From positions 434,001 to 498,000 of the forward strand of contig WGMB01000004.1 of assembly GCA_016125275.1 (NCBI GenBank): a stretch of DNA of 64,000 nucleotides. Direction: 5' to 3'. Both the position numbers and the translations under genes were made by a program. This stretch comes from Acidobacteriota bacterium (lineage in GTDB: Bacteria > Acidobacteriota > Terriglobia > Bryobacterales > UBA6623). The notes beneath the pieces were generated by a model. It made no database searches. It was not told the DNA's origin and saw only the letters and a program-made list of their open reading frames with translations. Every line of letters begins with the position of its first letter. Positions within the stretch are counted from its first letter, which is position 1. This document shows, piece by piece, positions 19,337 through 40,746 of this stretch.

Positions 19337-19352
19337 CGAACCGACCGAAGGC

Positions 19353-22361: not shown

Positions 22362-22367
22362 GCCGTC

Positions 22368-24619: not shown

Positions 24620-24627
24620 GGAGTAGC

Positions 24628-24646: not shown

Positions 24647-24649
24647 ACG

Positions 24650-24678: not shown

Positions 24679-24705
24679 TAGATAAAGTGCCCTTCGATTT
24701 CCATC

Positions 24706-24733
24706 TTGACACGCCTTTCGAGCTTCTGATAGC
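24706..24733 (+). promoter_or_regulatory. candidate sigma-70 promoter of the receptor 2 unit
   Basis: A perfect -35 TTGACA lies at 24706-24711, followed after 16 bases by a weak -10 GATAGC at 24728-24733. Predicted transcription would begin near 24740, upstream of the second operator copy. Confidence 0.5.
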
Positions 24734-24761
24734 GTCTTCGGCGGACCTGTCTAGAAACAGA

Positions 24762-24778
24762 GTTCCGATATCCGGAAC
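24762..24778. promoter_or_regulatory. candidate IclR operator O2 in the receptor 2 leader
   Basis: The inverted repeat GTTCCG-ATATC-CGGAAC shares both arms with O1 and differs only in the 5-base spacer. It lies between the predicted start of transcription (~24740) and the receptor ATG at 24817, so a bound regulator would block elongation or initiation. Confidence 0.7.
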
Positions 24779-24816
24779 CTTGTGAGGGTCCGTGGTGGAC
24801 CCACGAAGGAACTTCC

Positions 24817-27800
24817 ATGTCGAATCGCATTCTCGCAGCCGCCCTGCTGCTTCTCGTTCCCATCGCAGCGTTCGCTCAGGCGGGCGCGTCGATCTCCGGC
24901 ACCGTGACTGACGCCTCCGGCGCCGTCGTCCCCGCCGCCCGGGTGACGGTTTCCAACGAGCAGACCGGCGCCGAACGCGCCGTCAGCGCCAACGAGTCCG
25001 GCTACTACACCGTGGGCTCTCTGGCGCCAGGACGATACGCCGTCACCGTCGAGGCCGACGGCTTTCAGACGTCCTCGCGCACGGGCGTGGAGGCCCAAGT
25101 CGATGAGCGCCTGCGCGTTGACGTGAGCCTCGCCGTGGGGCAGATCACCGAAGTCGTCGAGGTTTCCGGCCAGGCGGCGAAGGTCAACACCCAGGACGCC
25201 GTGATGCGATCGGTCATCGACGCCAAGCGCATGGTGGACCTGCCGCTCAACGGCCGCAGCCCGCTGCAGCTCATGGCGCTAACGCCAGGCGTCATCCCGG
25301 CCCGGGCCGACGTCGGCGGATCGTTCCAGCCGGACGGTCAGCAGTTCGCCTCCGTGAGCGGAAGCAAGACCAACGGCGTCAACTACGTGCTCGACGGCGG
25401 CGACAACATGGACACCTACCGCGCCGTCGCCAATTCCTTCCCGAACCCGGACATCCTGCAGGAGTTCTCGGTCCAGACCAACAGCTACTCGGCGGAGTTC
25501 GGCGGCCGGGCCGGCGGCGTCGTCAACGCGGTGACCAAGTCGGGCACCAACCAGTTCCACGGCACGCTGTTCGAGTTTCTGCGCAACCAGCAGCTCAACG
25601 CCGGCAACTTCTTCGCGCCCGCCGATCCGGCCACCGGTACGAAGTCCAACGACGGCCTCAAGCGCAACCAGTACGGCGGCACCATCGGCGGTCCGATCAT
25701 CCGCAACAAGACCTTCTTCTTCTTCGGCTACCAACAGACGGCCGTGCGCCAGACGCCGACGACGGCGCAGTCCAGGGTCCTGACGGCGGGGCAAAGGATG
25801 GGCGACTTCAGCGACCTGGTCAGCGGCTCGGGCAGCTTGATCCCCATCAACGATCCGACGACCGGCGCGGCGTTCGCCAACAACGTGATTCCGTCCTCGC
25901 GCCTCGATCCCGTCTTCCAGAACTTTCTCGACGCCGTTCCGACCGCGCCCGATCCCAGCGGAATCGTCTATTACCCGCGCCGCACGATCAATGACGACAC
26001 GCAGTGGAACCTTCGCGTGGATCACCAGTTCACCACCAACGACCGCCTCTTCGTGCGCCTGTTCCGCGACCTCAACAGCCAACCCAACACCGGCATCCAG
26101 GGCAACATCCTCAGCTACGCCAACCGCCTGGAGCAGGACGCCACCAACCTCACCCTCGGCTACACGAAGATCTTCTCGCCGTCGGTGTTGGCGGACTTCT
26201 CGGCCACCTTCAACCGCTCCGACGGCCTGCGCGGCGATGTGGCGCCGTTCAACTGGCAGGACCTGGGCGCGAACGTCCCCGCGGCGGGCACCAGCAACGA
26301 CCTCCTGTTCTTCATGAACGGCTTCTTCAACATCTCTCTGTTCGGCGACACTCCGTTGGTTCGCAACAACTTCCAGTACAAGGCCAGCTTCAGCACCGTC
26401 AAAGGCCGTCACAACCTGCGCTACGGCGTCACGGCCATCCGCCGGCAGTTCAACATCCCAATCGTGAACGTGCAGTTCCACGGCCGTTACACCTTCAGCC
26501 AAGCCCTGACGGGCAGCAACGCCGCCGACGCGGTGATCGGCAAGCCCAGCGCCTTCCTGCAGACCGACGGCTTCCGCGTCGCCTTGCGCGAAACCGACTG
26601 GGCCGCCTTCATCAACGACGAGTACAAGCTCAACAGCCGCGTCACGTTGAACCTGGGGATGCGCTACGAGCCGTTCTTGCCCTGGCGCGACACCTGGAAC
26701 CCGCTGCCCCAGTTGGCGCAGTTCCAGCCCGGCCAGCAGTCCACCGTCTACAACAACGCGCCCACCGGCCTGATCTTCTACGGTGACCAAGGGGTGCAGC
26801 GCGGCGTGGCCAAGGACAACTGGAAGCGCTTCGCACCGCGCATGGGCGTGGCGATCGATCCGACCGGACACGGCACCATGAGCTTCCGGGCCGGCTACGG
26901 CGTCTTCTTCGACCAGACCTTGACGGCCGAGCAGACCCAGCAGTACGCCAGCCAGATTCCGGCCTTCACCACCACCGTGAACGTGCCGTTCCCGGTGAGC
27001 ACGCAGGACCCCTACGCGGGCCGGCCGGTTCCGTTCCCGGCGGCCGTGCCCAAGCCCCGCGACTACGTATTCCCCAGTCCGGTGACCGACATCCGCATGT
27101 TCTCGCCGGACATGACGAACCCCTATACCCAGCAGTGGAACGCGACCTTTGAGTCGCAGCTCTTCCGCCCCAGCCTGATCGGGCGGGTGACCTATCAGGG
27201 TTCCAAGGGCACGCGCCTGCCGCTGCTTTGGGAACAGAACCCGGGCGTCTACGTTCCGGGACAGTCGACGCGCGGAAACGTCAACAGCCGTCGTCCTTAC
27301 GGACCGGACTTCACCAGCATCAAGAGCGTCTCCCCGGTCGGCAACCACACCTACAACGCCCTCGTGGTGACCCTCGAGAAGCGCTTCACCAAGACCTACA
27401 GCGTGCTGGGCTCCTACACTTGGTCGAAGAACATCGACACGGGGTCGAACGCCAGCAGCGCCAACGGCAACTCCGTCGTCAACCCGTTCAACTTCTTCAG
27501 CGACCGCGGCCGGGCGGACGCCGACCGCACGCACGCCGTCGTCGTCTCGTATGTGTGGGAGCTGCCGAAGCTCAGCAACGCTCCGGCCCTGGTGCGGCAC
27601 GTGCTGGGAGGTTGGCAGAACAACGGCATCGTCAGCATGTATTCCGGGTTCCCGTTCAGCGTGGTGTCGGGCATCGACAACTCGCTCACAGGCGTCGGAC
27701 AGGACCGCGCCAATCTGATCGGCGACCCGAACTTGAGCTTCGATCGCCCCAACGGACAGCTCATCCAGAAGTACTTCAATACCGACGCCTTCACGGCGAA

Positions 27801-28056
27801 CCCCGAAGGAACCTTCGGCACCTCGGGCCGCAACATCCTGCGCGGACCGGGGACGCAGACGGTGGACTTCTCGGTCTTCAAGAACATCCCGACCTTCGAG
27901 GGGCAGTCGTTGCAGTTCCGCGCCGAGATGTTCAACTTCCTCAACCATGCGAACTTCGGCAATCCCAACTCGAACCTGCAGTCCGGCGCCTTCGGCCGTA
28001 TCACCAGCGCGGGCTCGCCTCGTATCATCCAGTTCGCTTTGAAGTACGTGTTCTGA
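24817..28056 (+). CDS. TonB-dependent receptor, Oar-like (receptor 2)
   Basis: The 1079-residue product has a Sec signal (residues about 4-21, cleavage near AFAQ) and a carboxypeptidase regulatory-like domain (about 25-105, ISGTVTDASGAVVPAARVTV). The plug follows (about 120-250, with VDLPLNGRSPLQLMALTPGV and LDGGDNMD), then a long beta-barrel ending in Phe (ALKYVF). The ribosome site AAGGA lies 7 bases before the ATG. The barrel loops differ strongly from receptors 1 and 3, so different ligands are likely. Its unit encodes two sulfatases, a beta-helix protein and sugar-oxidising enzymes, so a sulfated oligosaccharide is the best guess for the ligand. Regulation by the divergent IclR protein is supported by operator O2. 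Confidence 0.94.
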   Translation: MSNRILAAALLLLVPIAAFAQAGASISGTVTDASGAVVPAARVTVSNEQTGAERAVSANESGYYTVGSLAPGRYAVTVEADGFQTSSRTGVEAQVDERLRVDVSLAVGQITEVVEVSGQAAKVNTQDAVMRSVIDAKRMVDLPLNGRSPLQLMALTPGVIPARADVGGSFQPDGQQFASVSGSKTNGVNYVLDGGDNMDTYRAVANSFPNPDILQEFSVQTNSYSAEFGGRAGGVVNAVTKSGTNQFHGTLFEFLRNQQLNAGNFFAPADPATGTKSNDGLKRNQYGGTIGGPIIRNKTFFFFGYQQTAVRQTPTTAQSRVLTAGQRMGDFSDLVSGSGSLIPINDPTTGAAFANNVIPSSRLDPVFQNFLDAVPTAPDPSGIVYYPRRTINDDTQWNLRVDHQFTTNDRLFVRLFRDLNSQPNTGIQGNILSYANRLEQDATNLTLGYTKIFSPSVLADFSATFNRSDGLRGDVAPFNWQDLGANVPAAGTSNDLLFFMNGFFNISLFGDTPLVRNNFQYKASFSTVKGRHNLRYGVTAIRRQFNIPIVNVQFHGRYTFSQALTGSNAADAVIGKPSAFLQTDGFRVALRETDWAAFINDEYKLNSRVTLNLGMRYEPFLPWRDTWNPLPQLAQFQPGQQSTVYNNAPTGLIFYGDQGVQRGVAKDNWKRFAPRMGVAIDPTGHGTMSFRAGYGVFFDQTLTAEQTQQYASQIPAFTTTVNVPFPVSTQDPYAGRPVPFPAAVPKPRDYVFPSPVTDIRMFSPDMTNPYTQQWNATFESQLFRPSLIGRVTYQGSKGTRLPLLWEQNPGVYVPGQSTRGNVNSRRPYGPDFTSIKSVSPVGNHTYNALVVTLEKRFTKTYSVLGSYTWSKNIDTGSNASSANGNSVVNPFNFFSDRGRADADRTHAVVVSYVWELPKLSNAPALVRHVLGGWQNNGIVSMYSGFPFSVVSGIDNSLTGVGQDRANLIGDPNLSFDRPNGQLIQKYFNTDAFTANPEGTFGTSGRNILRGPGTQTVDFSVFKNIPTFEGQSLQFRAEMFNFLNHANFGNPNSNLQSGAFGRITSAGSPRIIQFALKYVF

Positions 28057-28075
28057 CGCTTCTGTCCGTCGCGCC

Positions 28076-28112
28076 GGTCGGCCGGCCTTCCGCTGGGGAG
28101 GGCCGGCCGACC
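28076..28112 (+). promoter_or_regulatory. strong intercistronic hairpin after receptor 2
   Basis: The arms GGTCGGCCGGCC (28076-28087) and GGCCGGCCGACC (28101-28112) are perfect complements, and TTCC pairs with GGGA inside, leaving a short loop. It begins 20 bases after the receptor stop and has no T-run, matching the placement of the hairpin after receptor 1. It may stabilise the receptor message over the enzyme genes. Confidence 0.65.
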
Positions 28113-28143
28113 CGGGCGCAACGCCGACGCTCTCGGGCGACCC

Positions 28144-29742
28144 ATGATCCTGCTCCGCCACCGAATCGCCGCGCTCCTGCTGCTGGCCCTGGCCGCAGCC
28201 TCGCCGCGCCCCGCCCCGGGGGCGGACAAGCCCAACATTGTGCTGATCCTGGCGGATGACATGGGCTTCTCCGACCTGTCGAGCTACGGCAGCGAGATCG
28301 ACACGCCGAATCTGGACCGCTTGGCAGCCAACGGCCTGCGCTACACGCAGTTCTACAACGTAGGCCGCTGCGCCCCCACGCGAGCCTCCCTGCTGACGGG
28401 CTTGTACAACCACCACGCCGGAGTCGGACACATGGTGGAAGACTTCGGGCTGCCGGGCTACCGTGGCCGGCTCAATCCCGAAGCCGTGACCATCGGCGAG
28501 GCTCTGCGGCCGGCCGGTTACCGCACGATCGCCGTCGGTAAGTGGCACGTGGGGTCTCCGCGCGGCTCTTGGCCCTTGGACCGCGGCTTCGACCGCTTCT
28601 ACGGCTCTCCGCAGGGGGACCTGCATTACTTTCGGATGTTTGGAGGCCGGTCGCTGGTGCTCGGAGACCAAGTGATCGAACCGGGGGAGGATTGGTTCAG
28701 CACCGAGGCCTACACCGAGCAGGCGATCGGGTTCATCCGCGAGGCCCAGGCCAACTCCAAACCCTTCTTCTGCTACCTGGCCTACTACGCGCCGCACTAT
28801 CCTCTGCAAGCGCGCCCGCAGGACATCGAACGCCACCTGGGCCGCTACCGCCAGGGATGGGGGCCGACCGGGGCCGCCCGGCATCGGCGCCAGGTGGAGA
28901 GGGGCGTCGTCGAATCCCGCTGGGGATCGAGCCCGCCCGACCCGCGCTTGGTTCCGGACTGGGCGACCGTCGACCAGGAGGAGATGGATCGCCGCATGGC
29001 TGTCTACGCGGCGCAGGTGGAGGAGATGGACCGGGGCGTTGGGCGCGTGGTGAGCCTGCTCGAGGAGTCCGGGGCGATCGACAACACGCTGATTCTGTTC
29101 CTCTCCGACAACGGCGGAGATTCGGCGGGCGGTCCGTTGGGCTTTCGACGATCCGACCGCGGCGATGCGACGGCTCCGATCGGCTCGCCGGACTCCTATG
29201 CCAGCTTCGGCGCCGCCTGGGCCCATGTGGCCAACACGCCCTTTCGCGGCTACAAGGGCGAAACCTACGAGGGCGGGGTCGCCACCCCGCTGATCGTCCA
29301 TTGGCCGGCCGGCATCTCGGAACGCGGAGGCCTACGGCGCCAAGTGGGCCACGTCATCGACCTGCTGCCCACGCTGCTGGACGCGGCGGGAGCGGCGTAC
29401 CCCGCCGAACGCAATGGAAAGCCGACCTTACCGCTGGACGGCCGCAGCCTGGTCCCGACCTTCCAGAACCGGCTGATGGAACGCGAGCCGCTGTTCTGGG
29501 AACATATGGGCGCTCGGGCCGTCCGGGACGGGCGCTGGAAGCTGGTCAGCCGTCCAAAGGGCGACTGGGAGCTCTACGACCTCGACTCGGACCGGGCCGA
29601 ATCGAAAGACCTGGCCCCGGAGCGGTCGGAGCTGGTCCGGAAGCTGAGCAGCGTCTACGACGCTTGGGCGGCCAGAACGGGCGTGGAGCCGTGGCAGAAG
29701 GTCCAGCCGATCTTCGACAAGCTGCGAGAGGCGCAACCGTGA
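28144..29742 (+). CDS. secreted sulfatase (formylglycine type), sulfatase 1
   Basis: The 532-residue product has a signal peptide (about residues 6-27) and a type I sulfatase fold. The active-site motif is Cys76-Ala-Pro-Thr-Arg80 (CxPxR), whose Cys must be converted to formylglycine. Metal ligands come from LADDMG near residue 38 and from LSDNGGD in the C-terminal half. It resembles arylsulfatases that act on sulfate esters of glycans; the sulfated position cannot be read. It lies 87 bases after receptor 2 and 50 bases before the beta-helix gene. No maturation enzyme (formylglycine-generating enzyme or anaerobic SME) is encoded in this window, so it must be supplied from elsewhere. Confidence 0.93.
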   Translation: MILLRHRIAALLLLALAAASPRPAPGADKPNIVLILADDMGFSDLSSYGSEIDTPNLDRLAANGLRYTQFYNVGRCAPTRASLLTGLYNHHAGVGHMVEDFGLPGYRGRLNPEAVTIGEALRPAGYRTIAVGKWHVGSPRGSWPLDRGFDRFYGSPQGDLHYFRMFGGRSLVLGDQVIEPGEDWFSTEAYTEQAIGFIREAQANSKPFFCYLAYYAPHYPLQARPQDIERHLGRYRQGWGPTGAARHRRQVERGVVESRWGSSPPDPRLVPDWATVDQEEMDRRMAVYAAQVEEMDRGVGRVVSLLEESGAIDNTLILFLSDNGGDSAGGPLGFRRSDRGDATAPIGSPDSYASFGAAWAHVANTPFRGYKGETYEGGVATPLIVHWPAGISERGGLRRQVGHVIDLLPTLLDAAGAAYPAERNGKPTLPLDGRSLVPTFQNRLMEREPLFWEHMGARAVRDGRWKLVSRPKGDWELYDLDSDRAESKDLAPERSELVRKLSSVYDAWAARTGVEPWQKVQPIFDKLREAQP

Positions 29743-29792
29743 CGCCACGAGCCACAGGAGACGCCGCCGCGCGCGGTGGGGGAAGACTTTTC

Positions 29793-31631
29793 ATGACGTT
29801 GAGATTGTTCGCCACGTTGGCTGTTGCGGTTGCGGTCGCCGCCGCGCAGGGTCCGCCCGCCGTGGACTCCACACACTACATCCGCCCGGGTGAGAACCCC
29901 CAGGCCGTGATGGACGCCGCCGCTCCCGGAGACAAGCTCGTCTTCCTGCCCGGCGTCCACGAGCACCCTTTGCGCAAGCATCAATCGCTGCTCTACGTGG
30001 ACAAGCCGATCGACATCGAGCTGATGGAAGGGGCCGTGCTGAAGCTGGCCGACGGGCAGACGACGCTCGAGACCGAGCCGGAGCTCTCGATCGACCACGG
30101 CTCCGTAAAGACCATCGACGATTTCTCCGTCCGCGGCCGCTATGACAAGGGGCTCGGCCCGGTGATCTTCACCGTACGGATCGACGGCGAAGGCAAGGCC
30201 GGCCGGCCCGACACCTTCTCGTGGGTGACCGGCTGGGGGCCCGGGGCCACCACCGGGACGCCGCACGCCAAGGTCCCGGTCACCGGCGACTGGCAACCTC
30301 TGAGCAACGGCGTGGAGATCAAGTTCGATGCGCGGAGCGGGCACAGCGACGGCAGCTTCTGGGCGCTCTCCTACGACGGCCGCGAGTCCTACGGCATCCG
30401 GGTGGGGTACGGCACACAGCCCGAATACATCGAGAATGTGCGGATCTTCGGCCGTGGCGTGGTCGACCTGAACCAGGACAACAACGTCCAGCCCTCGGAG
30501 CTGGTCAAGGACATCTCGGCCTGCGTGCTGCTGCACGGCCGTGTTCGGAACGTCTCCGTTGAGCAGATCACCATGACCAACACCATGCGAACGGTGATGG
30601 TCTACGGCGAGCACACCGGCAAGTTCCTGCGCGGCGGGGCGACGGCGGGCGGCGAATCGTTCGATGCCGAGAACATCGCCATCCTCGGGACCCGCACCAT
30701 CAACCCCAAGGGCCGAGCCTATCTGCTGGGACACCCCTCCCACCGAGGCCTTCTCAGCAAGGTGCGCTGCAACTACAACTACATGGAGACGGGGGCGACG
30801 GCGCTCGAGCCGAACTTCAACCTGAGCCAGTACGAAGTGATCGGCAACGTGATCAAGAGCGGCGGCCGGGCCATCCACTGCTGGCGCAAGTCCGTGAACG
30901 GGATCATCAAGAACAACGTTCGCATCGACGATCCCACCGGAATGGAAGTGGTGATGGTGAACGCGCCCGGCGCTTGGGAGACCCCGGAAAACCTGATCAT
31001 CCGCGACAACCGCAACCACTTGAGCGATCCGTTGGGCTACTGGGCTACCACGACGGGCGGCTTCGAGAACAAGGCGCTCGGCCAGTATTCCGGCGTTGCC
31101 GGCGGCCGCCGCAACGTGGCTGAGGCGGACTTCGCCACGGTGACGGGAGGCGACGGCAACCGCGCGGCCGCGCCGTACTCCCAAGCGCAAGGTTGGCAGG
31201 CGAATGCGCGGCTGCCCGGCGAGGACGCGCTAGCATCGGGCGCGTTCGAGACGCCGGGCGACGCACAGTCGTCGACGCTGGTCGCCAAGGGCGTGACCAC
31301 GGACGGCGCCGCCGCGATGCTGGCCCTGGCAGGCGGCGCTCCGGTGCGCATCGCCGACGGCGCCACTGTGGCGTACCGGGTGCTGGCGGTCGCCCGAGGG
31401 CAGGGTGGCGGGGCCATGGCGGCCTATGAGGCAAAGGGCTTGGCGGTGCGCGACGGAACCGGCCTGAAGCTGCTGGGAGCAAAGGCCACGGCGCTGCACG
31501 AGAGCGACGCCGCTCTGGATTTCGAGATCGTCGACGCGGGGCAGGGAGCGCTTGGGCTCCGGGCGCACGGTCTGGCGGGCCGGACGCTGCGCTGGGTGGC
31601 CCGGCTGGAACTGGTCGAGGTGGCGTATTGA
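29793..31631 (+). CDS. secreted right-handed beta-helix protein with YadA-head-like repeats
   Basis: The 612-residue product has a signal peptide (to about residue 20). A right-handed parallel beta-helix of the pectate-lyase type follows (about 25-420), opening with PGENPQAVMDAAAPGDKLVF. Next come four repeats of exactly 15 residues with Asn at 426, 441, 456 and 471 and the pattern N-x-A-x3-[YF]-[SA]-x-[VA]-x-GG, decaying in the fourth copy. This resembles the head repeats of YadA and of phage tail proteins, which form trimeric left-handed rolls. Residues 486-612 form a last beta domain. It may be a polysaccharide lyase or a glycan-binding trimer; no catalytic residues could be assigned. The downstream FAD gene overlaps its stop by 4 bases. 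Confidence 0.8.
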   Translation: MTLRLFATLAVAVAVAAAQGPPAVDSTHYIRPGENPQAVMDAAAPGDKLVFLPGVHEHPLRKHQSLLYVDKPIDIELMEGAVLKLADGQTTLETEPELSIDHGSVKTIDDFSVRGRYDKGLGPVIFTVRIDGEGKAGRPDTFSWVTGWGPGATTGTPHAKVPVTGDWQPLSNGVEIKFDARSGHSDGSFWALSYDGRESYGIRVGYGTQPEYIENVRIFGRGVVDLNQDNNVQPSELVKDISACVLLHGRVRNVSVEQITMTNTMRTVMVYGEHTGKFLRGGATAGGESFDAENIAILGTRTINPKGRAYLLGHPSHRGLLSKVRCNYNYMETGATALEPNFNLSQYEVIGNVIKSGGRAIHCWRKSVNGIIKNNVRIDDPTGMEVVMVNAPGAWETPENLIIRDNRNHLSDPLGYWATTTGGFENKALGQYSGVAGGRRNVAEADFATVTGGDGNRAAAPYSQAQGWQANARLPGEDALASGAFETPGDAQSSTLVAKGVTTDGAAAMLALAGGAPVRIADGATVAYRVLAVARGQGGGAMAAYEAKGLAVRDGTGLKLLGAKATALHESDAALDFEIVDAGQGALGLRAHGLAGRTLRWVARLELVEVAY

Positions 31632-33784
31632 GGGCCGCGACGCACGGCGTGCTGTTCGCGCTGCTGCTGGCGGCTCCGGCGGGCGCTGAAGCGGTCGATG
31701 CCGATCTGCTCATCGTCGGCGGAACGGAGTCCGGATGGGCGGCGGCGATCCAGGCCGCGAGGATGGGCGTCGGCTCGATCGTGCTGGTCAACGACATCGA
31801 ATGGCTCGGCGGGCAGTTCTCCGCGGAATCGGTGGGCGCCATTGACGAGAACCGGGGCATGGATGGCGCGCCGTTCCCGCGATCCGGGCTCTTTGCCGAG
31901 CTCGCCGAGCGCATTGAGCAGGACAACCTGCGCCTCTACGGCAACAAGAAACCCGGCAATGCCTGGACGGCTCGCACGGAGGTGCGTCCGGCGCAGGCCG
32001 CTCGGCTGTTCCGGGAAATGATCGAGCCCTATGTGGCTTCCGGTCAGGTGCGGCTCTTCTCGCACTTCTACGCCACGGGAGCCTCGCTGGCGGGCGACGG
32101 CAAGACCCTCAAGTCGGTGCGATTCCGTTCGAGCGTTCAAGGCGAGCCGGAGCTGAGCGTCCGGGCGAAGCTGACGATCGACGCCTCGGATTGGGGCGAC
32201 GTGGTGCAGGCTTCCGGCGCCGACTTCGAAGTGGGCGTCGATCCTCGCAGCCGTTACGGAGAACCCAATGCGCCGGTCGACCAGAGCGCTTTCCCTCCGA
32301 CCGACATGAACCCGATCACCTACACATTGGTGATCACCGAGACCGGCGACGGCGACCCGATTCCTCGCCCCGAACACTTCGACGACCAGCGCTACTTCCT
32401 CACTTCCAGCGTCACCGAGCGGGACTACCGGGCCCTGCCGTGGCCCTTTCCGCCACACCGTCCCTTCAACCCGCCGTGGACGCCGCTGACGGGCAAGTTC
32501 TACCAGGGCGACCGCAGCGTCTACTCACAGCGCCGCTTGGTGGACCACTACAACCAGAAGATCGACCACCCGGACGTAATTTCGCTGGTCTGGACCATCC
32601 AGGACTATCCCCTCGACGCACTGCCGAGCCATGTGATCAACGCTCTGGAAGCCGACCAGCCCGGCGCTTCCCGCAAGAACATCGCGCTGATGAGCCGCAA
32701 TCAGCGCCAGATCGTCTTCGAAGACGCCAAGCAGCACTCGCTCGGCATGCTCTACCACCTGCAGACAACGGTGCACGATCGCATGGAGGACCGGGCGCAC
32801 TCGTTCCGGCGTTTCGAGCTCAGTGACGAGTTTCCGACTGAAGACCGCTGCCCGCCCAAGCCCTATGTCCGTGAATCGATCCGCCTGAAGGCGCTGTACA
32901 TGATGCGCGAGCCGGACAGCCGCCACTTCGAGGGCGGCGTCGCCTCGGCGACCGCAGAAGGAGTCGCCACGAAGGGTTCGACGGACGACCGCTTCTCGCA
33001 ACAGATGTACTACGACACGGTGGCCGGCTGGCAGTTCCCGTACGACTTCCACATGACCGGTCGGATGTTCCTCGGTGGCGACGAAACCGGACCCTGGGCC
33101 TCCTACTTCAAGCCGGGCCGGTCGTGGCGCACGCAGAGCGATCGCGCCACGTTCCCTTTGCGGAGCTTGATTCCGGAGCGCGTGGACGGATTGCTGGGCG
33201 CCCAGAAGAACCTCGGCTATTCCAGCATCGTCAGCTCGGCGGTCCGCATCCACGACCAGAGCGTGGCGATCGGCCAGGCCGCCGGGGCCGCGGCGGCGGT
33301 CGCACTGCGGAAGGGAATTCAGCCGCGGGCCCTGCCGTATGACTTGAATCTGCTCAGCAGCGTGCAGCGGGCCCTGGTCGAGCAGGGGGATGCCGGAACG
33401 CCGGCCATTCTGTGGCCTTTTCGCGACATCGGTCCCGAGCATGCCGCCTACGCCGCGGCGAACCTGCTGGCCGGCCACCAACTGTTGCCGCTCGAGCCCG
33501 GCGACGTCGACTTTCGCCCGGACGACCCGGTCAATGCCGATTGGCGCAGAGTCGTGGTCGAGCGCTCGCGCCGGCGGTTCATCGGCGCTCCGGCTCCGCC
33601 GGAAGGCGAAATGACGCGCGGCGATTTTGCCGTCCGCTGGTGGAACGCGCTCCGGGATCTGCGGCAGGCGGAGCTGCCGCGCTTCAGCGCGCTCGACGCG
33701 GACAACGACGGCGTCCCGGACCGCGACGATCCCGCGCCGTTCGACGCGGCCGACCGCAACTTGATGGACTTTCTCGCGCATTAG
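31628..33784 (+). CDS. secreted FAD-dependent oxidoreductase
   Basis: The 718-residue product has a signal peptide (about residues 5-22) and an FAD-binding Rossmann motif LLIVGGTESGWAAAIQAARMG (about 27-47). A further block YSSIVSSAVRIHDQSVAIGQAAGAAA near residue 545 is typical of the FAD_oxidored (PF12831) family. The C-terminus carries a calcium-loop-like DADNDGVPDRDD. The family often sits in glycan loci and is thought to oxidise sugars or polyols, but the reaction is unproven. The TTG start overlaps the TGA of the beta-helix gene (TTGA) and has GAGGTGG 4 bases upstream, so translation is coupled. Export of an FAD enzyme suggests folding before transport or cofactor loading outside; no twin-arginine motif is visible. 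Confidence 0.85.
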   Translation: MRAATHGVLFALLLAAPAGAEAVDADLLIVGGTESGWAAAIQAARMGVGSIVLVNDIEWLGGQFSAESVGAIDENRGMDGAPFPRSGLFAELAERIEQDNLRLYGNKKPGNAWTARTEVRPAQAARLFREMIEPYVASGQVRLFSHFYATGASLAGDGKTLKSVRFRSSVQGEPELSVRAKLTIDASDWGDVVQASGADFEVGVDPRSRYGEPNAPVDQSAFPPTDMNPITYTLVITETGDGDPIPRPEHFDDQRYFLTSSVTERDYRALPWPFPPHRPFNPPWTPLTGKFYQGDRSVYSQRRLVDHYNQKIDHPDVISLVWTIQDYPLDALPSHVINALEADQPGASRKNIALMSRNQRQIVFEDAKQHSLGMLYHLQTTVHDRMEDRAHSFRRFELSDEFPTEDRCPPKPYVRESIRLKALYMMREPDSRHFEGGVASATAEGVATKGSTDDRFSQQMYYDTVAGWQFPYDFHMTGRMFLGGDETGPWASYFKPGRSWRTQSDRATFPLRSLIPERVDGLLGAQKNLGYSSIVSSAVRIHDQSVAIGQAAGAAAAVALRKGIQPRALPYDLNLLSSVQRALVEQGDAGTPAILWPFRDIGPEHAAYAAANLLAGHQLLPLEPGDVDFRPDDPVNADWRRVVVERSRRRFIGAPAPPEGEMTRGDFAVRWWNALRDLRQAELPRFSALDADNDGVPDRDDPAPFDAADRNLMDFLAH

Positions 33785-33811
33785 GAGCGAACTCGGGAAA
33801 TCGGTGACGAC

Positions 33812-34567
33812 ATGTTTGATCTGACAGGAAAGTCCGCCCTTATCACGGGCGGCGCCTCCGGCATCGGCGAAGCGATCGCGCGCGCCTTTGTCGCACAAGG
33901 GGCTCGGGTAGTGATTGGGGACCGCGATGCGTCGCGCGCCCTACAGCTGGCCGAGGAGATCGGCGCGGAGGGGACTGCGCTCGATGTGACCGACCCTCGC
34001 TCTCTGCGGGCGGCGATGGATCGGGCGATCGACGCGGCGGGCGGGTTGGACCTGCTGGTCAACTGCGCCGGACTGATGCATGTGGGCAAGCTGCACGAGA
34101 CCGAGCCCGAGGACTACGACCGGATTCAGGCCGTCAACGCCCGCGGCGTCTACTTAGCCTGCAGGGCGGCCATCGAGCCCATGCTGCGGCGGCGTTCCGG
34201 CAACATCATCAACATCGCCTCGGTCGCTTCGCTGATCGCCGTGGAGCGCCGCTTCGCCTACTGCGTGAGCAAGGGCGCCGTGCTCGAGATGACCCGGGCG
34301 CTGGCGATCGACTACGCTCGCGACGGCATTCGCGCTAACGCCATCTGCCCCGGCACCGTCGATACGCCCATGATTCGCGGTTACGTGCAGAAGTACTTCG
34401 GCGACGATGTGGCCGGCACCCTGGCGCAGTTGCACGAGCGGCAGCCGATCGGCCGGATGGGTGAGGCGCGCGAGATCGCCGCACTGGCTGTCTTCTTAGC
34501 CGCCGACGAGAGCGCCTTCATGACCGGCGCGGCGCTGCCCATCGACGGAGGCTGGACCGCCAAGTGA
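33812..34567 (+). CDS. short-chain dehydrogenase/reductase (sugar dehydrogenase-like)
   Basis: The 251-residue product is a classical SDR. It has the cofactor motif TGGASGIG (12-19), Asp37 after the second strand (NAD preference), NCAG (84-87), and the catalytic Ser137, Tyr150 and Lys154 (YCVSK). The closing IDGGWTAK is typical of sugar and acyl dehydrogenases. In context it may oxidise a sugar such as L-fucose or galactose, or a keto-deoxy sugar acid, with NAD. It starts 27 bases after the FAD gene and its stop overlaps the GTG of the enolase gene, so the pair is coupled and probably works in one pathway. No signal peptide is present, so it is cytoplasmic. Confidence 0.9.
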   Translation: MFDLTGKSALITGGASGIGEAIARAFVAQGARVVIGDRDASRALQLAEEIGAEGTALDVTDPRSLRAAMDRAIDAAGGLDLLVNCAGLMHVGKLHETEPEDYDRIQAVNARGVYLACRAAIEPMLRRRSGNIINIASVASLIAVERRFAYCVSKGAVLEMTRALAIDYARDGIRANAICPGTVDTPMIRGYVQKYFGDDVAGTLAQLHERQPIGRMGEAREIAALAVFLAADESAFMTGAALPIDGGWTAK

Positions 34568-35802
34568 AGATCCAACGTCTGACGTTCGCCGTGATCGAAG
34601 CCAACTACGACTGGACCGTCGTCCGCATCGACTCTGACGACGGCCGTTTCGGTCTGGGGGAAGCCTATATGGGGCCGGGGCTCACGGCCATCCTGCGGGA
34701 GATGGCGCCGCTGCTGGTGGGGCAGGACCCTTTTCAGGTGGAGACCCTCGTCCGTCGGTTGCGGGCCGCCGTCGTCCACGCCGGCCCGGGCGTCGCTTGG
34801 CACGCCATCGCGGGCGTCGAGGCGGCCTTGCTCGACCTGATCGGCAAGGCGGTCGGGCAACCGGTCTGGCGTCTGCTCGGCGGCAAGTATCGTGACCGGG
34901 TGCGCGTCTACGCCGACTGCCACGGCGGCGAAGCGCTGGAGAGCATCTCGTCTCTGCTCGTGCCGCGCACCCCCCGCTGGGCGGCGCGGGGCGAAGCCGC
35001 CGGTGCGGCCGTCGCTTTCAGCGTCAAGCACCACGGCTGGGATACCGCAGAGGGCGTCATGACGCCGGAGACCTATGCCGCCAGCGCGCTCCGCATGGTC
35101 GAACGCGGCTTCGATCTGCTCAAGTTCGACGTGGACGTTCCCACGCCCTACCCCACCGACGAATACAACCGCGGCCTCAGTGACCGGGAGATTGAGTTCA
35201 TGACCGGCTTGATTCGCGCCGTCCGCGAGGCCGTCGGCTGGGAAGTGGATCTGGCGGTCGACTGCCACTGGAACTACACGGTCGAAGACGCCGTGCGCTT
35301 GTGCCGCGCCTTGGACCCGTTGAAACTATTGTGGATCGAGGACCCCGTGCCGGCCGACGACGCCGCCCGCAGCGGGGAGGTCCAGAAGGAGGCGCAAACG
35401 GCCATCGCCACCGGAGAGAATCACTACTTCCGGCGCGACTTCGAGCTGCTGCTCGACGCTGCCAAGCTCCGTATCTTGGCTCCCGATCCCCAGAAAATCG
35501 GCATCTGGAGCGGCAAGAAGATCGCCGACTTGGCCGACGCCCGCTACGCTAATCTCACGCTGCACAACATCAGCGGCCCCATCGGTACGATCGCGTCGGC
35601 GCACCTGGCGGCGGCGATTCCGAACTCGCTGGCGCTCGAATGGCACGGCGCCTCGGTGCCGTTCTTCGATGAGCTGCTCCACGGCGACCCGCTGATTGAG
35701 AACGGCCGCATCGCCATGAACGAGAGGCCCGGTTGGGGCGTGGAGCTGAACGAGGACGTCGCCTATCGCTACTGCAACCCCGAGCAAGGATTCTTTGCAT
35801 GA
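34564..35802 (+). CDS. enolase-superfamily sugar-acid dehydratase, galactonate dehydratase-like
   Basis: The 412-residue product belongs to the mandelate racemase/muconate lactonising group of the enolase superfamily. Predicted magnesium ligands are Asp233, Glu259 and Glu285, with His235 and His334 as acid/base residues. The spacing (26, 26 and about 49 residues) closely matches D-galactonate dehydratase (Asp183, His185, Glu209, Glu235, His285 in the E. coli enzyme). A Lys-x-Asp (187-189) replaces the Lys-x-Lys of other subgroups. It should remove water from an aldonic acid to give a 2-keto-3-deoxy acid; the exact sugar acid is uncertain. The GTG overlaps the SDR stop and its own stop overlaps the next ATG, so it is tightly linked to dehydrogenase and sulfatase. 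IclR control fits this pathway. Confidence 0.88.
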   Translation: MKIQRLTFAVIEANYDWTVVRIDSDDGRFGLGEAYMGPGLTAILREMAPLLVGQDPFQVETLVRRLRAAVVHAGPGVAWHAIAGVEAALLDLIGKAVGQPVWRLLGGKYRDRVRVYADCHGGEALESISSLLVPRTPRWAARGEAAGAAVAFSVKHHGWDTAEGVMTPETYAASALRMVERGFDLLKFDVDVPTPYPTDEYNRGLSDREIEFMTGLIRAVREAVGWEVDLAVDCHWNYTVEDAVRLCRALDPLKLLWIEDPVPADDAARSGEVQKEAQTAIATGENHYFRRDFELLLDAAKLRILAPDPQKIGIWSGKKIADLADARYANLTLHNISGPIGTIASAHLAAAIPNSLALEWHGASVPFFDELLHGDPLIENGRIAMNERPGWGVELNEDVAYRYCNPEQGFFA

Positions 35803-37148
35803 GCTGGAGTCGCCGCAGCTTCCTCTCCGCCGCCGCTACGTTGCCCCTGGCCGCTCAAGGGAGGCGTCCGCCGAACATCCTGTTCCTGATCTCGGACGAC
35901 CACAGCGCCGCGGACCTCGGCTGCTACGGCGCGGCCAAGTTGCCGACGCCCCACCTGGACCGGCTGGCCGCCCAGGGGATGCGCTTCACGCGGGCCTACG
36001 CCACGGCGCCCCAATGCAGCCCCAGCCGCTCTTCGTACTTCTCCGGTTGCACGCCGCACACGATCGGGACCTCCCGGCAGGCTTCCTTCTACCCCTCATT
36101 CGAGCCCAGCATCATGGAGTCTTTGCGGGAGGCCGGCTACGTCACGGCCGCCTTCGGCAAGGTCCACCAGGGCGACGAGTTCGACCGGCGCTTCGATCTG
36201 TTCGACGCGAAAATTGACGCGGTGAAGACTTTGTTCGAGAAGGCCCCGCGCGACAAGCCCTTCTTCGCCCAAGTCGGCTACAGCGATCCGCATCGGCCCT
36301 ATCCTTCGCGGGCTGCTGCGCCGCCCACGCGGCCCGAAGACGTCTCCGTGCCCGCCTTCTTGCCCGACACGCCCGCGGTCCGGCAGGACCTGGCAGCCTA
36401 CTGGGACGAGATCCGTCGCCTGGACGCGCAGATCGGCCGGGCGCTCGAAGCCTTGGAGGTGAGCGGGCGCGCCGGCGACACGATGGTCGTTTTCACGGGC
36501 GACCACGGCTTCCCGTTCCCTCGAGGCAAGGGCTCGCTCTACGAGGGCGGGCTGCTGGTTCCATTGATCGTGCGCTGGCCGGGCCGTATCACCGCCGGAT
36601 CAGTGAGCGAAGCTCTGACCGCGGGCGTCGACCTGGCGCCCACTTGGCTCGACGCCGCCGGGCTCCCTCCCGGACCCAAGATGCAGGGACGCAGCTTGGT
36701 CCCGGTCCTCACCGGCGCCCGTCCGAGCATTCGCAACGCCGTCTTCGCCGAGAGGAACTGGCACAACCACACCGACCCCCAGCGGTGTGTCGTCACCGAG
36801 CGCTACAAGCTGATCTACAACGGGCGCCCGGAACAGCCCTATCGGCCCACGTCCGACATCGCCGCCTCCCCAAGTTGGCTGTCCTACCTGGAGGAAGACG
36901 TGCGGGGGCGGCTCAGCCAAGATCTGCGCCGCCTGCTCGCACCGTCGAGGCCCTTCCTCGAGCTCTACGATCTGCAGGCCGACCCCAACGAGTTCCACAA
37001 CCTCGTCGAAGACCCACGCCACGAGGCCGAGCGTATCCGCCATGAGATGCTGCTGAGCGACTGGATGCACGAGACGCTCGACTACCTGCCGCCGCTGTAC
37101 TACAGCTATCCCGCCCGCGACCATCCCGGGCGACGCCTGACGGTGTAG
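35799..37148 (+). CDS. exported sulfatase (formylglycine type), sulfatase 2
   Basis: The 449-residue product starts with a twin-arginine-like signal (SRRSFLSAAATLPLAAQ). The sulfatase motif is Cys73-Ser-Pro-Ser-Arg77, with metal residues in LISDDHSA (about 30-37) and FTGDHGFPF (about 230-238). It resembles iduronate-2-sulfatase-like and other glycan sulfatases (S1 family). The CSPSR form and Tat export differ from CAPTR and Sec export in sulfatase 1, so the two probably remove sulfate at different positions. The ATG overlaps the enolase stop (ATGA). It is the last gene of the IclR-controlled unit and ends 11 bases from the end of the convergent fucosidase gene. Confidence 0.93.
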   Translation: MSWSRRSFLSAAATLPLAAQGRRPPNILFLISDDHSAADLGCYGAAKLPTPHLDRLAAQGMRFTRAYATAPQCSPSRSSYFSGCTPHTIGTSRQASFYPSFEPSIMESLREAGYVTAAFGKVHQGDEFDRRFDLFDAKIDAVKTLFEKAPRDKPFFAQVGYSDPHRPYPSRAAAPPTRPEDVSVPAFLPDTPAVRQDLAAYWDEIRRLDAQIGRALEALEVSGRAGDTMVVFTGDHGFPFPRGKGSLYEGGLLVPLIVRWPGRITAGSVSEALTAGVDLAPTWLDAAGLPPGPKMQGRSLVPVLTGARPSIRNAVFAERNWHNHTDPQRCVVTERYKLIYNGRPEQPYRPTSDIAASPSWLSYLEEDVRGRLSQDLRRLLAPSRPFLELYDLQADPNEFHNLVEDPRHEAERIRHEMLLSDWMHETLDYLPPLYYSYPARDHPGRRLTV

Positions 37149-37159
37149 GCGCCTCGGGC

Positions 37160-38611
37160 TCAGCCGCTGATGCGTAGCGTCGGCGCGTGGGAGGGCGTCC
37201 TGGCTTCGGGGAGTGAGACGGTCAGCTTGCCATCGGCGACCGTGCTCTCCAACTCCGGGCCGCCCAGCAGCGCAACCTTGGCGCCCTCGACGACAGGCCC
37301 GGCGTCCAGGGTTACCTTCGCGGACTTCGGTTCTCCCAGCAGGATCGCGTACCGCGCGCCGCCCCGTTGGGTAAAGCGCACGGGCACGCTGCCGTCGGTC
37401 TCCCCGTCGGCTCTTTCCCAGGGCCGAGTGTCGAAAATGGCCTCGCCGTTGACGTCGAGCCACTTGCCCAAAGCTTCCAGGCGAGCCTCCTGGAGCTCAG
37501 GAATCGAGCCGTCCGGCTTCGGACCCACGTTGAGCAGCAGGTTGCCGTTCTTGCTCACGATGTCCGCCAGCAGGTGGATCAGCTCGGCTTCACCGATCGT
37601 GTGCTCGGCGGTCTCCACTTGGTTGTACCCGAAAGAGAAACCGAGCCCCCGGCAGGTCTCCCACTTGTAATCGGTGATGGCGTCCATCTTCGAGTACTCC
37701 GGGGTGACGAAATCGTGATGCCGGGGAGGATCGCCCTCGATGCCGGTCTCGAAGCGGTTGTTGATCACGCCGTCGGGGAAGCGGTTGTAGAAGTCCGCCA
37801 CGATCTCGGCCAGGTGGGACTGCTTGGGGTAGCCGATGTCGTTCCACAGGATCGACGGCTCGTATTTGTTGATCAGCTCCCGCCAGTGGGCGTCAGCGTA
37901 GTCGGCGAACTCCTGGGTGTGGTTGATCGTGCTGCGGACCTTCTCCTTGGTGTCGATCGGCTCAGGGTTGAAGCTCCAGTCCAGGCCGCCGGAGTAGTAG
38001 AAGCCCATGCGCATTCCGTCGGTCTTGACGGCGCGGGTGAGCTCGCCCACGATGTCGCGCTTGGTCCCTTGCAGGTCGTCGGGCAGGTGGGGGTTGTCCA
38101 CGTCGCTGGGCCAGAGGGTGAAGCCGTCGTGATGCTTGGTGGTCAGCACCACGTAGCGGGCGCCTACGCCGGAGAACAGCGACGCCATCGCCGAGGGGTC
38201 CCAAGCCTCCACGGCCTTGTTGAACATCGGCGCGAACTGCATGTAGTCGAAGTCCGCGCCGTAGGTCTCCCGATGATGCTTCTGGGTGGGAGAGCCGTCG
38301 ATTCGGAGCGAGTTCAGATACCACTCGGCGTAAGGATTGTTCTTGAACCAAACGTTGAAGTCGACCTTACCCAACTCGCCCAGCGGCGTCGCCCAGGCCG
38401 GTACCGAGTAGAGGCCCCAATGGACGAAGATGCCCAACTTGGCGTCATCGAACCACGCGGGCAGGCGATGGGTTCGGATGGACTCCCAGTTGGGCTCGAA
38501 ATGCGGCGAGCCGGCGGCGGTCTCCGGTTGCGGCTTGCTGTCGGCGCAAGCGCCCAAGGAGAGGACAACCGTCGCTCCCATGAAATCTCGGCGCGTCCAA
38601 CGATGCGACAT
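37160..38611 (-). CDS. alpha-L-fucosidase, GH29 family, Tat lipoprotein
   Basis: The 483-residue product has a twin-arginine motif (TRRDFMG) and a lipobox LSLGAC (Cys21), so it is probably exported folded and lipid-anchored. The GH29 fold follows, with the blocks FVHWGLYSVPAWA, YVVLTTKHHDGFTLWPS and FYYSGGLDW. The nucleophile is Asp258 in LWNDIGYP, and a C-terminal beta domain ends the protein. It should release alpha-linked L-fucose from glycans. The ribosome site AAGGGGG precedes the ATG. It closes a minus-strand unit with sugar-isomerase-like, TPR and CRTAC1 genes and is convergent with the sulfatase unit. This is the best clue that the target glycan contains fucose. Confidence 0.93.
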   Translation of the reverse strand: MSHRWTRRDFMGATVVLSLGACADSKPQPETAAGSPHFEPNWESIRTHRLPAWFDDAKLGIFVHWGLYSVPAWATPLGELGKVDFNVWFKNNPYAEWYLNSLRIDGSPTQKHHRETYGADFDYMQFAPMFNKAVEAWDPSAMASLFSGVGARYVVLTTKHHDGFTLWPSDVDNPHLPDDLQGTKRDIVGELTRAVKTDGMRMGFYYSGGLDWSFNPEPIDTKEKVRSTINHTQEFADYADAHWRELINKYEPSILWNDIGYPKQSHLAEIVADFYNRFPDGVINNRFETGIEGDPPRHHDFVTPEYSKMDAITDYKWETCRGLGFSFGYNQVETAEHTIGEAELIHLLADIVSKNGNLLLNVGPKPDGSIPELQEARLEALGKWLDVNGEAIFDTRPWERADGETDGSVPVRFTQRGGARYAILLGEPKSAKVTLDAGPVVEGAKVALLGGPELESTVADGKLTVSLPEARTPSHAPTLRISG

Positions 38612-38677
38612 GGCTTCGTTCCCCCTTGGTTTCAGTCCGGTTACCGGCTTTGCTGTTTGATGACGGCCCGACTCTCT

Positions 38678-39652
38678 CTAGGTCGCCGCAGCCAGATAGG
38701 CTTCGAGCTTCCGTTTGGCATCGGCGAGGTAGTCCGGCATCTTCGCCGGGTCGCCGCCGATCTCGAACATCAACGAGCCCGAGTAGCGGATCTCGGCGAG
38801 CTTCCGCAGGAGTCGAGGGTAGTCGACGAAACCGTACTCCAGCGGCTTGTGCTCGGCCCAGGTGGAGGGCTCGATGTCGTGAATGTGCAGGTGGAAGAGC
38901 TTGGGGCCCAGGCGCTCGACGAGCTCTTCGTTGATGTCGTTGTAGGCCCGAATGCCGGCCGGCGTGCCTTTGTCCTCGGGCTTCACGCGGGCGGTGAGCT
39001 CGGCGTAGCGGCTCTGGTGGCCGACGTCGAGCGTTGCGCCGATGTGGCTGTGGTCGATCTCTTGGATCATCGCCACGAACTCCCGTACCGAGGCTGGGAA
39101 GCCCGTCTCCAGGGCGATTTGGATGTCGTGCTTGCGGGCCAGATCCCCCCAGTGCCGATAGAGCTCGATCCGCTCGGGCCAAGTCTGTTCGCGGCGCGAG
39201 CCCGTGAGGGCCTCGGCATGCAGCACGCACAGCTTCGCCCCAAAGTAGGCCGCGCCTTCGAGGGCGATCTCCACCCGCTGCCGAGAAAAATCGCGGATCG
39301 GGTCGAAGTGGGAGAACGTGTGCAGGTCGGTATACGGCAGGTGCCCCGTGACCCGCTCGAAGCCTTCGAGCGACTTGCGGATCTGCTGCTTCTCGGCTTT
39401 GCTGAGCCGGTCGAACTCGAACCCCGGGAACAGTCCGGGCGTCGGTTCGGGCCGGCCCATGGGGTGGATTTCGATGACCGGGAAGCCAAGGCCGCCCACG
39501 CAGTCGATGGCCTCGATGAGGCCGTAGCCCGAGATCGCCGTATTGGCTCCCAGGATCTGTGGACCGAGCGTCGCGGCTCGAAGTCGCGGGGCGAGGACGG
39601 CGTACAGCCCTCCGGCCAGCAGCCCGCCCCATTCGCGTCTCGTGGTTTGCAT
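38678..39652 (-). CDS. sugar phosphate isomerase/epimerase-like TIM barrel protein, exported
   Basis: The 324-residue product belongs to the xylose-isomerase-like/AP endonuclease 2 TIM-barrel family. Likely metal-ligand positions are seen in VIEIHPMG, IALETGFP, GATLDVGHQ, LHIHDIEP and MFEIGGD. The N-terminus (TTRREWGGLLAGGLYAVLA) looks like a twin-arginine signal, so it may act outside the cytoplasm, as do many relatives in Acidobacteria and Planctomycetes. The ATG at 39652 is preferred because the signal begins there; a start 16 codons upstream lacks support. It lies 66 bases before the fucosidase gene on the same strand. The substrate is unknown; sugar isomerisation or epimerisation is inferred from the family. 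Confidence 0.85.
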   Translation of the reverse strand: MQTTRREWGGLLAGGLYAVLAPRLRAATLGPQILGANTAISGYGLIEAIDCVGGLGFPVIEIHPMGRPEPTPGLFPGFEFDRLSKAEKQQIRKSLEGFERVTGHLPYTDLHTFSHFDPIRDFSRQRVEIALEGAAYFGAKLCVLHAEALTGSRREQTWPERIELYRHWGDLARKHDIQIALETGFPASVREFVAMIQEIDHSHIGATLDVGHQSRYAELTARVKPEDKGTPAGIRAYNDINEELVERLGPKLFHLHIHDIEPSTWAEHKPLEYGFVDYPRLLRKLAEIRYSGSLMFEIGGDPAKMPDYLADAKRKLEAYLAAAT

Positions 39653-39729
39653 TCGGTTCTCTCGGTTGGTTGCGCTGATAACGTGAACAAGATACCCCAA
39701 AACGCGACTCTCCGCTCGGAGCTCGCCGC

Positions 39730-40746
39730 CTACTCCGGGAAGGGCCGGGTCTGCTCGGCCTCGAGGAACTGCGGATTCTCCCGCCGTAGGCGCAGAGACT
39801 CGCGCTTCTCGGCGGCGGCCTTCTTGAGGTCCTTTTGCCGAAAGTAAATCTGGGAGAGCAGCAGATGTGGCTGGGGATGCCGTGGTTCCTGCTCGATCGC
39901 CCGGTTCAGCTCGGCGATCGCATCATCCAGGCGGCCGTCTCCCATCAGCGCCCTTCCCAGGCGCACCCGGGCCGGAATGTAGCCGGGGAGGATCTCGATG
40001 GCGCGCCGCAACAGGGGCTCGGCTTCGGCGTAGCGGCCTTGATTGACCAGCCAATCGCCGTAGTAGAAGAACGGCTCCTCGTAGGACGGGTCCAGCTCCA
40101 TGGCCTTCTTGATCCGGGTTAGCGCCGAATCGTACTCGCCGTCCTTGAGCAGGTGCCAGCCATACTCGAACTGGGCTCTGGCGGACTCCGGGAAGCGTTC
40201 GGCGGCCCGCCGGGCCACCTCGCGTCCCTTGCTCAACTCGCCGGCCTGCCGGTAGGCGGTGATGGCCATGAAGTAGAGCGCCGGGTCGGCCGGTTTGAGC
40301 TCGATGGCTCGTTCGGCGATCGCCGCCGCTTCTTGGTAGTAGCGGCCCGCGCCGTACTCCACAGACATCACCTGCATCAGCTTCAACTGGTTGGGCTGCA
40401 AGGTCAGCGCCGCCCGCCAAGCCCGCAGGGCGCCGTCGTGGTCGCCGTTCTTGGAGCGGGCCAGGCCCAACAGATAGCGGGAGTTGAAATCCTTGGGCTC
40501 CGCCTTGGCGGCCTTCTCCAGATAGGCCTCGCCCTCGGAGAACTTCGATTGCTGGACCTTCATCAACCCGAGGTTGAAAAGGGCCGGAAAATAGGCCGCG
40601 TCAGCCTGGAGCGCCTGTTTCCACAGCGCCTCGGCTTCGGCGAGCTTCTTCTGCTGCGCCAACCCCATGGCTTGGTCGGACAACGCCGCGGGATCGGCAG
40701 CCGCCAAAATCGCCGTGGTCGACAGCACCAGGAGCCAGCGCTTCAC
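39730..40746 (-). CDS. secreted tetratricopeptide repeat protein
   Basis: The 338-residue product has a short signal peptide (KRWLLVLSTTAILAAAD) and then about eight TPRs covering almost the whole length, for example AYFPALFNLGLMKVQQSKFSEG and PHLLLSQIYFRQKDLKKAAAEK. It probably binds a partner in the periplasm. The GTG at 40746 is chosen because it overlaps the TGA of the CRTAC1 gene (GTGA) and the signal peptide starts there; longer forms would read into that gene out of frame. The pairing of an ASPIC/UnbV protein with a TPR protein recurs in Acidobacteria, so the two probably work together. No enzymatic motif is present. Confidence 0.87.
   Translation of the reverse strand: MKRWLLVLSTTAILAAADPAALSDQAMGLAQQKKLAEAEALWKQALQADAAYFPALFNLGLMKVQQSKFSEGEAYLEKAAKAEPKDFNSRYLLGLARSKNGDHDGALRAWRAALTLQPNQLKLMQVMSVEYGAGRYYQEAAAIAERAIELKPADPALYFMAITAYRQAGELSKGREVARRAAERFPESARAQFEYGWHLLKDGEYDSALTRIKKAMELDPSYEEPFFYYGDWLVNQGRYAEAEPLLRRAIEILPGYIPARVRLGRALMGDGRLDDAIAELNRAIEQEPRHPQPHLLLSQIYFRQKDLKKAAAEKRESLRLRRENPQFLEAEQTRPFPE

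Follow-up and report, generated by a model that had tools for sequence, protein, structure and literature searches.

The question raised by this locus is how a member of the Acidobacteriota might degrade, take up and oxidise a sulfated polysaccharide, and which polysaccharide that would be. We examined a window of 64,000 nucleotides (G000:C1:434001-498000) in a 7.55-Mb genome that is 97.6% complete and whose closest named relatives, according to its beta-helix protein, are Bryobacterales (Acidobacteriota) assemblies. An original prediction, made from the sequence of the window, had described positions 24817-39652 as one locus for the use of a sulfated, fucose-containing polysaccharide. We found that this interval comprises two convergent units, unit 1 at 23792-37148 and unit 2 on the minus strand at 42647-37160, with ends 11 bp apart. 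Our reading, to which we give a probability of about 0.6, is that unit 1 is a self-regulated glycan-use operon without SusD, whose beta-helix protein is a depolymerase of an anionic polysaccharide.

Unit 1 is led on the plus strand by OarB, an Oar-type TonB-dependent receptor (24817-28056) with both plug and barrel (PF07715, Plug; PF25183, Oar-like barrel, 6.5e-212) and a PF13620 (CarboxypepD_reg) domain. The receptor is followed by an S1-type sulfatase with a Sec-like leader (28144-29742; PF00884, 6.2e-60; nearest solved relative the arylsulfatase 7all, 1.6e-104), the beta-helix protein, also with a Sec-like leader (29793-31631), a flavin adenine dinucleotide (FAD)-dependent oxidoreductase with a leader peptide (31628-33784; PF12831, 2.4e-61; no close solved relative), and two enzymes without a leader: a classical short-chain dehydrogenase/reductase (SDR; 33812-34567; PF13561, 3.1e-65; TGGASGIG and YCVSK motifs; nearest solved relative 5itv, 1.3e-53) and an acid-sugar dehydratase of the enolase superfamily, MR/MLE type (34564-35802; PF13378, 1.2e-54; nearest solved relative 2qq6, 2.5e-73). 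The run ends with a second S1-type sulfatase, with a Tat-like leader (35799-37148; PF00884, 1.2e-49; nearest solved relative the S1_8A sulfatase 9bb9, 1.8e-56). Leader peptides were assessed by eye. Both sulfatases combine the family match with the cysteine of the C-x-P-S/T-R motif (Cys76 in CAPTR and Cys73 in CSPSR, respectively). Divergently from the receptor, on the minus strand, lies a gene for an IclR-family regulator (23792-24619; PF01614, 2.2e-41; PF09339, 4.6e-15), which the original prediction had omitted; it had mentioned the beta-helix protein in passing. The beta-helix open reading frame, listed as 28542-31631, was over-extended, and its most likely start is the ATG at 29793, 50 bp past the first sulfatase; the likely start of the second sulfatase is the ATG at 35799.

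All the genes named in the original prediction were present according to their domain matches and motifs, and the three 4-base start/stop overlaps that it had reported were confirmed in the sequence (TTGA at 31628, GTGA at 34564 and ATGA at 35799). Its pairing of desulfation with sugar oxidation and dehydration within one gene run likewise agrees with the domain matches of unit 1. The same is true of a receptor-led locus without SusD: SusD_RagB (PF07980) had no match in the genome, with a positive Bacteroides control, while other SusD families were not searched. The genome contained at least 65 matches to the Oar-type barrel PF25183 (65 of 111 candidates scored) and at least 132 to the sulfatase family PF00884, two of them below the cut-off (150 of 174 candidates scored); six split pairs, once joined by eye, bring the sulfatase matches to about 126 genes. 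Because both families are so common here, the co-occurrence of sulfatases with an Oar receptor is not in itself unusual. Twelve matches corresponded to the FGE family of sulfatase maturases.

The conservation of the gene run tells which of its parts belong together. A scan of 84,980 species genomes with the beta-helix protein recovered 71 loci, of which 62 (L023-L084) matched at length; the remaining nine (L085-L093) matched in short stretches and were excluded; GH29 matched in two of these, L087 and L093. Neighbouring genes were sought with tblastn at 1e-8 in flanks of up to 10 kb, and the counts are lower bounds, many contigs being shorter. Ten acidobacterial loci, the window included, had at least 6 kb upstream of the beta-helix gene; among them we found the IclR regulator in 7, the receptor in 8, the SDR in 6 and the dehydratase in 7, each of the two sulfatases in 2 (L024 has just a 128-residue piece of the first), and the FAD enzyme in 1. 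The order IclR-OarB-SDR-enolase-beta-helix was kept in L029, L030, L033 and L034, and with insertions in the window and L024; the regulator gene adjoins the receptor in these five relatives and in L031. Over the 62 loci, relatives of IclR were found in 23 and relatives of the sulfatases in 6; both are large families, so that a distant match, such as those at 26-36% identity to IclR beyond Acidobacteriota, indicates family and not orthology. The conserved core is the beta-helix protein with the IclR regulator, and the sulfatases look like optional parts of the locus. The FAD oxidoreductase, with relatives in none of the 62 loci, was rejected as a core part; its single close match among 299 genomes of the class was in G053, at 44% identity. 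At its C-terminal end this protein carries a calcium-binding-like motif, DxDxDGxPD (residue 690).

In many verrucomicrobial loci the beta-helix gene was accompanied by PF06439 (3-keto-disaccharide hydrolase), ThuA, DUF7133/cytochrome c, IclR, PSCyt/PSD1 and DUF1501 genes, these families being identified on one representative each. We also observed, directly before the beta-helix gene of two acidobacterial loci (L023:7897-9894 and L024:7844-9754), proteins of 637-666 residues that are 77% identical to each other, with no Pfam match and no solved relative; the L023 open reading frames at 5683-7897 had no Pfam match either.

Unit 2 bears on the fucose part of the original prediction. Its first gene encodes a UnbV/FG-GAP protein (40743-42647) and its second a TPR protein (39730-40839), both assigned by domain match, followed by a xylose-isomerase-like TIM barrel with a Tat-like leader (38678-39700, best start ATG at 39652; PF01261, 6e-30) and, last, by a GH29 alpha-L-fucosidase (37160-38611; PF01120, 8.7e-97), all on the minus strand. 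The unit is divergent from a further Oar-type receptor, OarC (42811-46083, plus strand; PF25183, 8.5e-209). Elsewhere in the window, at 13723-23777, we observed a second receptor-led locus comprising an Oar receptor, two proteins that match ceramidases weakly, a 3-keto-disaccharide hydrolase and a DUF7133/cytochrome c protein.

If the two units formed a single locus for a sulfated, fucose-containing polysaccharide, GH29 would free fucose, and the SDR and the dehydratase would oxidise it. The GH29 gene is genuine, one of four in the genome: it passes the family match and aligns with the fucosidase of T. maritima (1hl8, 1.7e-126) over the WND and EY stretches, which we take to hold the catalytic nucleophile and acid/base positions, and 11 bp separate its end from that of the sulfatase operon. 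An SDR beside an enolase-type dehydratase is also the layout of the oxidative L-fucose and L-rhamnose pathways, and the genome had no match to the C-terminal family of L-fucose isomerase, which would leave the oxidative route. Yet GH29 lies in a separate convergent run and, like the TIM barrel, was found in none of the 62 relative loci, many of them on short contigs. A TIM-barrel homologue stood alongside GH29 in 0 of 13 relative loci (those 13 of 14 with E of 1e-50 or better, the weakest, G099, being excluded). In one of these neighbourhoods (L136:3198-10248, genome G204, from a different family within the order), an OarC with 69% identity is oriented divergently from the TPR and UnbV genes, the TIM-barrel gene is present and GH29 is missing. 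The strict operator TTCCGNNWTNCGGAA, described below, did not occur at unit 2. The dehydratase, for its part, is nearest to the uncharacterised protein 2qq6, had no entry named fuconate dehydratase among the best 60 of its 157 structural-database matches and scored 185.5 bits against the NCBIfam galactonate dehydratase, whose cut-off is 311, with no equivalog cut-off passed, and the SDR passed only the broad NCBIfam subfamily 'glucose 1-dehydrogenase' (232 vs 215 bits). We therefore consider a joint fucose locus quite improbable. One operon including GH29 was rejected on account of the opposite strand, the convergent arrangement and the missing conservation; GH29 and the genes next to it seem to make up a unit of their own, and on this evidence the substrate of unit 1 is not fucose-specific. 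Of the original one-locus proposal there remains the receptor-led run of unit 1, and of the gene order that it suggested looking for in relatives the IclR, receptor, SDR, dehydratase and beta-helix genes are kept, while GH29 is not and the sulfatases seldom are.

The gap between iclR and oarB suggests how unit 1 would be regulated. It contains two palindromes, GTTCCGAAATACGGAAC (24629-24645) and GTTCCGATATCCGGAAC (24762-24778), which flank a promoter-like element on the plus strand, TTGACA at 24706 and TAGCGT at 24730 (24706-24735), recognised by eye from its resemblance to TTGACA-17-TAAACT in relatives. The pattern TTCCGNNWTNCGGAA had two forward matches in the whole genome, both in this gap, against one for the reversed control pattern. 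A TTCCG-N5-CGGAA site within one mismatch was present upstream of the receptor in all seven acidobacterial loci that show this stretch (L023, L024, L029, L030, L031, L033 and L034, of which L029 and L030 are near-copies and L023 had no IclR match), and L031 and L034 each had two such sites. Judged from the nucleotide sequence, the two palindromes are probable IclR operators. A scan of the window allowing two mismatches gave 5 matches vs 2.9 expected, a number reached by 22 of 100 shuffles, and a generic promoter scan gave 2 vs 1.5 expected, the TTGACA/TAGCGT element not among them. Between the receptor and the first sulfatase we found a strong GC hairpin on the plus strand (28057-28143; minimum free energy -58.2 kcal/mol, z -3.90, no shuffle out of 200 reaching that stability); through it, the receptor and the enzymes may be expressed at different levels.

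The beta-helix protein, encoded once as far as a search of the genome showed, had no significant Pfam match (the best was an adhesin repeat, E 0.16), and neither PHROGs (up to 0.1) nor NCBIfam (up to 0.001) gave a match. It consists of a beta-helix (residues about 26-412), YadA-head-like repeats (about 413-482) and a phage-tail-like foot (about 483-612). Across Acidobacteriota, Planctomycetota and Verrucomicrobiota the identity of its core is 52-69%, and many polar and aromatic residues, among them Asp291, Glu339, His362 and Arg365, are invariant in an alignment of 58 sequences, namely the window and 57 loci; L056 (an apparent near-copy of L055) and the partial L079, L080, L082 and L083 were excluded from the alignment and from the tree made with it. 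The predicted structure, mostly confident over residues 26-412 (ten-residue means 67-98), is a right-handed parallel beta-helix, and its structural matches agree with this. In VIA-align, where the matches listed for the full model span residues 25-431, the best match to the core was the alginate epimerase/lyase 8ja4 (Z 26.7, root-mean-square deviation (rmsd) 2.4, 242 residues), followed by AlgE4 (Z 25.6), phi29 gp12 and an alginate lyase, and by GH28 enzymes and phage tailspikes (Z about 23-24); the best Foldseek match of the full model in the PDB had E 8.2e-07. A scan of viral sequences with the core recovered no relative. Given these structural neighbours and the sulfatases, the substrate is probably an anionic, partly sulfated polysaccharide.

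A shared beta-helix fold says little about the reaction catalysed, and the protein might bind or epimerise its polysaccharide, in which case the operon would modify or capture a polymer cut by other enzymes. The best structural match of the core is indeed an alginate epimerase/lyase, and the repeats and foot resemble parts of adhesins and tails. Against this, the many invariant polar residues fit catalysis, without proving it, and we recognised no other depolymerase in the operon; we regard such a role as unlikely. Assignment of the core by motif, as an alginate epimerase or as GH28, was tried and rejected, since the catalytic motifs are missing in the 58 sequences.

The C-terminal part of the protein points to phage tails. 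Residues 415-507 matched UspA1 repeats (E 9.7e-5). Modelled alone, the last 131 residues had a predicted local distance difference test score (pLDDT) of 87.9, and the first seven solved structures that they matched were all phage tail or baseplate proteins, such as T4 gp9 (Z 10.7, rmsd 4.0, 114 residues), the Kp9 tail fibre (9.4) and the AM24 tailspike (8.4); ranks 5-7 had Z 7.2-7.8, a range where chance likeness is possible. Compared with predicted viral proteins, the full model gave 109 matches with E no worse than 0.001, tail or YadA-head-like proteins being frequent among them, and the best matches of the foot extended over about 130 columns at rmsd 2.7-3.0. One of 21 candidate stretches, the viral contig L137 (IMG/VR), contained a relative of the foot in sequence (39% identity over 129 residues, E 1e-14). 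There, positions 2119-3405 encode a 428-residue protein that ends with the foot, with YadA-like repeats before it (by eye), and that sits two genes before a terminase-like gene, as read from the sequences.

Taken together as an operon for glycan use, these parts would work as follows. The IclR regulator would bind the two palindromes around the receptor promoter and respond to a metabolite of the pathway. After its secretion the beta-helix protein, which its foot of the phage tail type probably holds together as a trimer, would cut the anionic polysaccharide extracellularly or in the periplasm, the sulfatases would take off sulfate, and the Oar-type receptor would import the fragments across the outer membrane. 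The SDR would then oxidise the freed sugar in the cytosol, where the enolase-type enzyme would dehydrate the resulting acid to a 2-keto-3-deoxy acid. The receptor could also act in the opposite direction and export the beta-helix enzyme, as Myxococcus Oar does with PopC: PopC secretion that depends on Oar has been described (PMC11658791), and OarB accompanies the beta-helix gene in those 8 of 10 acidobacterial loci. The many Oar-type receptors of this genome favour nutrient uptake instead, and a trimer could presumably hardly pass a TonB-dependent barrel; we consider export highly improbable.

Several results weigh against the depolymerase operon that we prefer. No inner-membrane sugar carrier is encoded in the operon, and two relatives, L026 and L027, had no OarB match, though L026 has a different Oar-type receptor downstream. 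The catalytic motif of AlgE epimerases, YGFDPH, occurred in 0 of 58 sequences, and the GH28 motifs (NTD, DD, GHG and RIK) were incomplete, with N-T/S-D in 0, GDD in 18, GHG in 55 and R-I/V-K in 6 of the 58; because these motifs are missing, the enzymatic action is putative. The model was not confident over residues 413-495, the Foldseek TM-scores were low (0.11-0.31 among the 50 matches listed), and a tblastn search of 50,697 phage records with the foot found no match. As for the operator, the looser GTTCCG-N5-CGGAAC had three more perfect sites outside this gap, and allowing one mismatch gave 42 sites genome-wide vs 28 for the control. The operator pattern sought in the relatives was not enriched over all 62 loci (79 matches vs 95 for the control), and the motif is therefore lineage-local.

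More tentatively, and at a little below even odds, we propose that the beta-helix protein founds a new family of carbohydrate-active enzymes spread among three phyla, in which a catalytic core is joined to different C-terminal parts, a repeat-and-foot module known from phage tail fibres in Acidobacteriota and a beta-propeller in Verrucomicrobiota, and is often linked to an IclR regulator close by and to oxidative sugar enzymes. Among the 62 loci, the phage-type foot was present in 13 (11 Acidobacteriota and 2 Planctomycetota) and a beta-propeller in 23, all of them from Verrucomicrobiota; a further 23 had neither, and 3 had another kind of end, with classes possibly wrong where the contig ends inside the gene (L034, L054 and L082). 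A quick tree required 7 changes of phylum label vs 2 as the least possible, which suggests some transfer of the gene between phyla; support was by the Shimodaira-Hasegawa-like approximate likelihood ratio test (SH-aLRT) only, 15 of 55 inner branches were weak, and for no single phylum do the starred branches require more than 3 changes. The open-licence literature, searched without a family name, yielded no description of the family, which speaks only weakly for there being none.

As a type, the operon varies a known theme, the glycan locus led by a receptor. Like the SusC/SusD loci of Bacteroidetes, it unites a TonB receptor, sulfatases, carbohydrate enzymes and a regulator, and differs from them by the missing SusD_RagB, the Oar-type receptor and the IclR regulator. 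The SDR adjoining an enolase-superfamily dehydratase recalls the oxidative pathways for L-fucose, L-rhamnose and D-galactonate, though the dehydratase falls below the galactonate dehydratase cut-off. Alginate/mannuronan C5-epimerases and the epimerase/lyase (2pyh, 5lw3 and 8ja4) are the best structural matches of the core (Z 25.5-26.7), but are 16-17% identical to it, and it lacks the YGFDPH motif. A bacterial tailspike-like glycan enzyme is also already known: WceF of Pantoea stewartii (6tgf; PMC7949094), a non-phage enzyme that has a tailspike-like parallel beta-helix. WceF shares the right-handed parallel beta-helix predicted here and weakly matches the foot as well (Z 6.1, rmsd 5.1, 108 residues), a likeness in structure. 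WceF belongs to an exopolysaccharide synthesis cluster and hydrolyses stewartan, whereas the gene studied here lies in a receptor-led catabolic operon. Finally, He et al. 2017 (PMC5615132) report that sulfatase genes of freshwater Verrucomicrobia often lie near putative extracellular pectin lyases and PSCyt genes; several verrucomicrobial loci of the beta-helix family look like these neighbourhoods, a comparison made by description.

Unit 1 offers a testable entry to polysaccharide use by Acidobacteriota that have many Oar receptors and sulfatases and lack SusD. The beta-helix family is conserved well enough across the three phyla that establishing the biochemistry of one member would serve to annotate about 60 of the searched genomes together, several of which have a lake or pond in their names. 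The foot, for its part, would be a case of a phage tail module occurring also in a secreted enzyme of bacteria, whichever the direction of movement.

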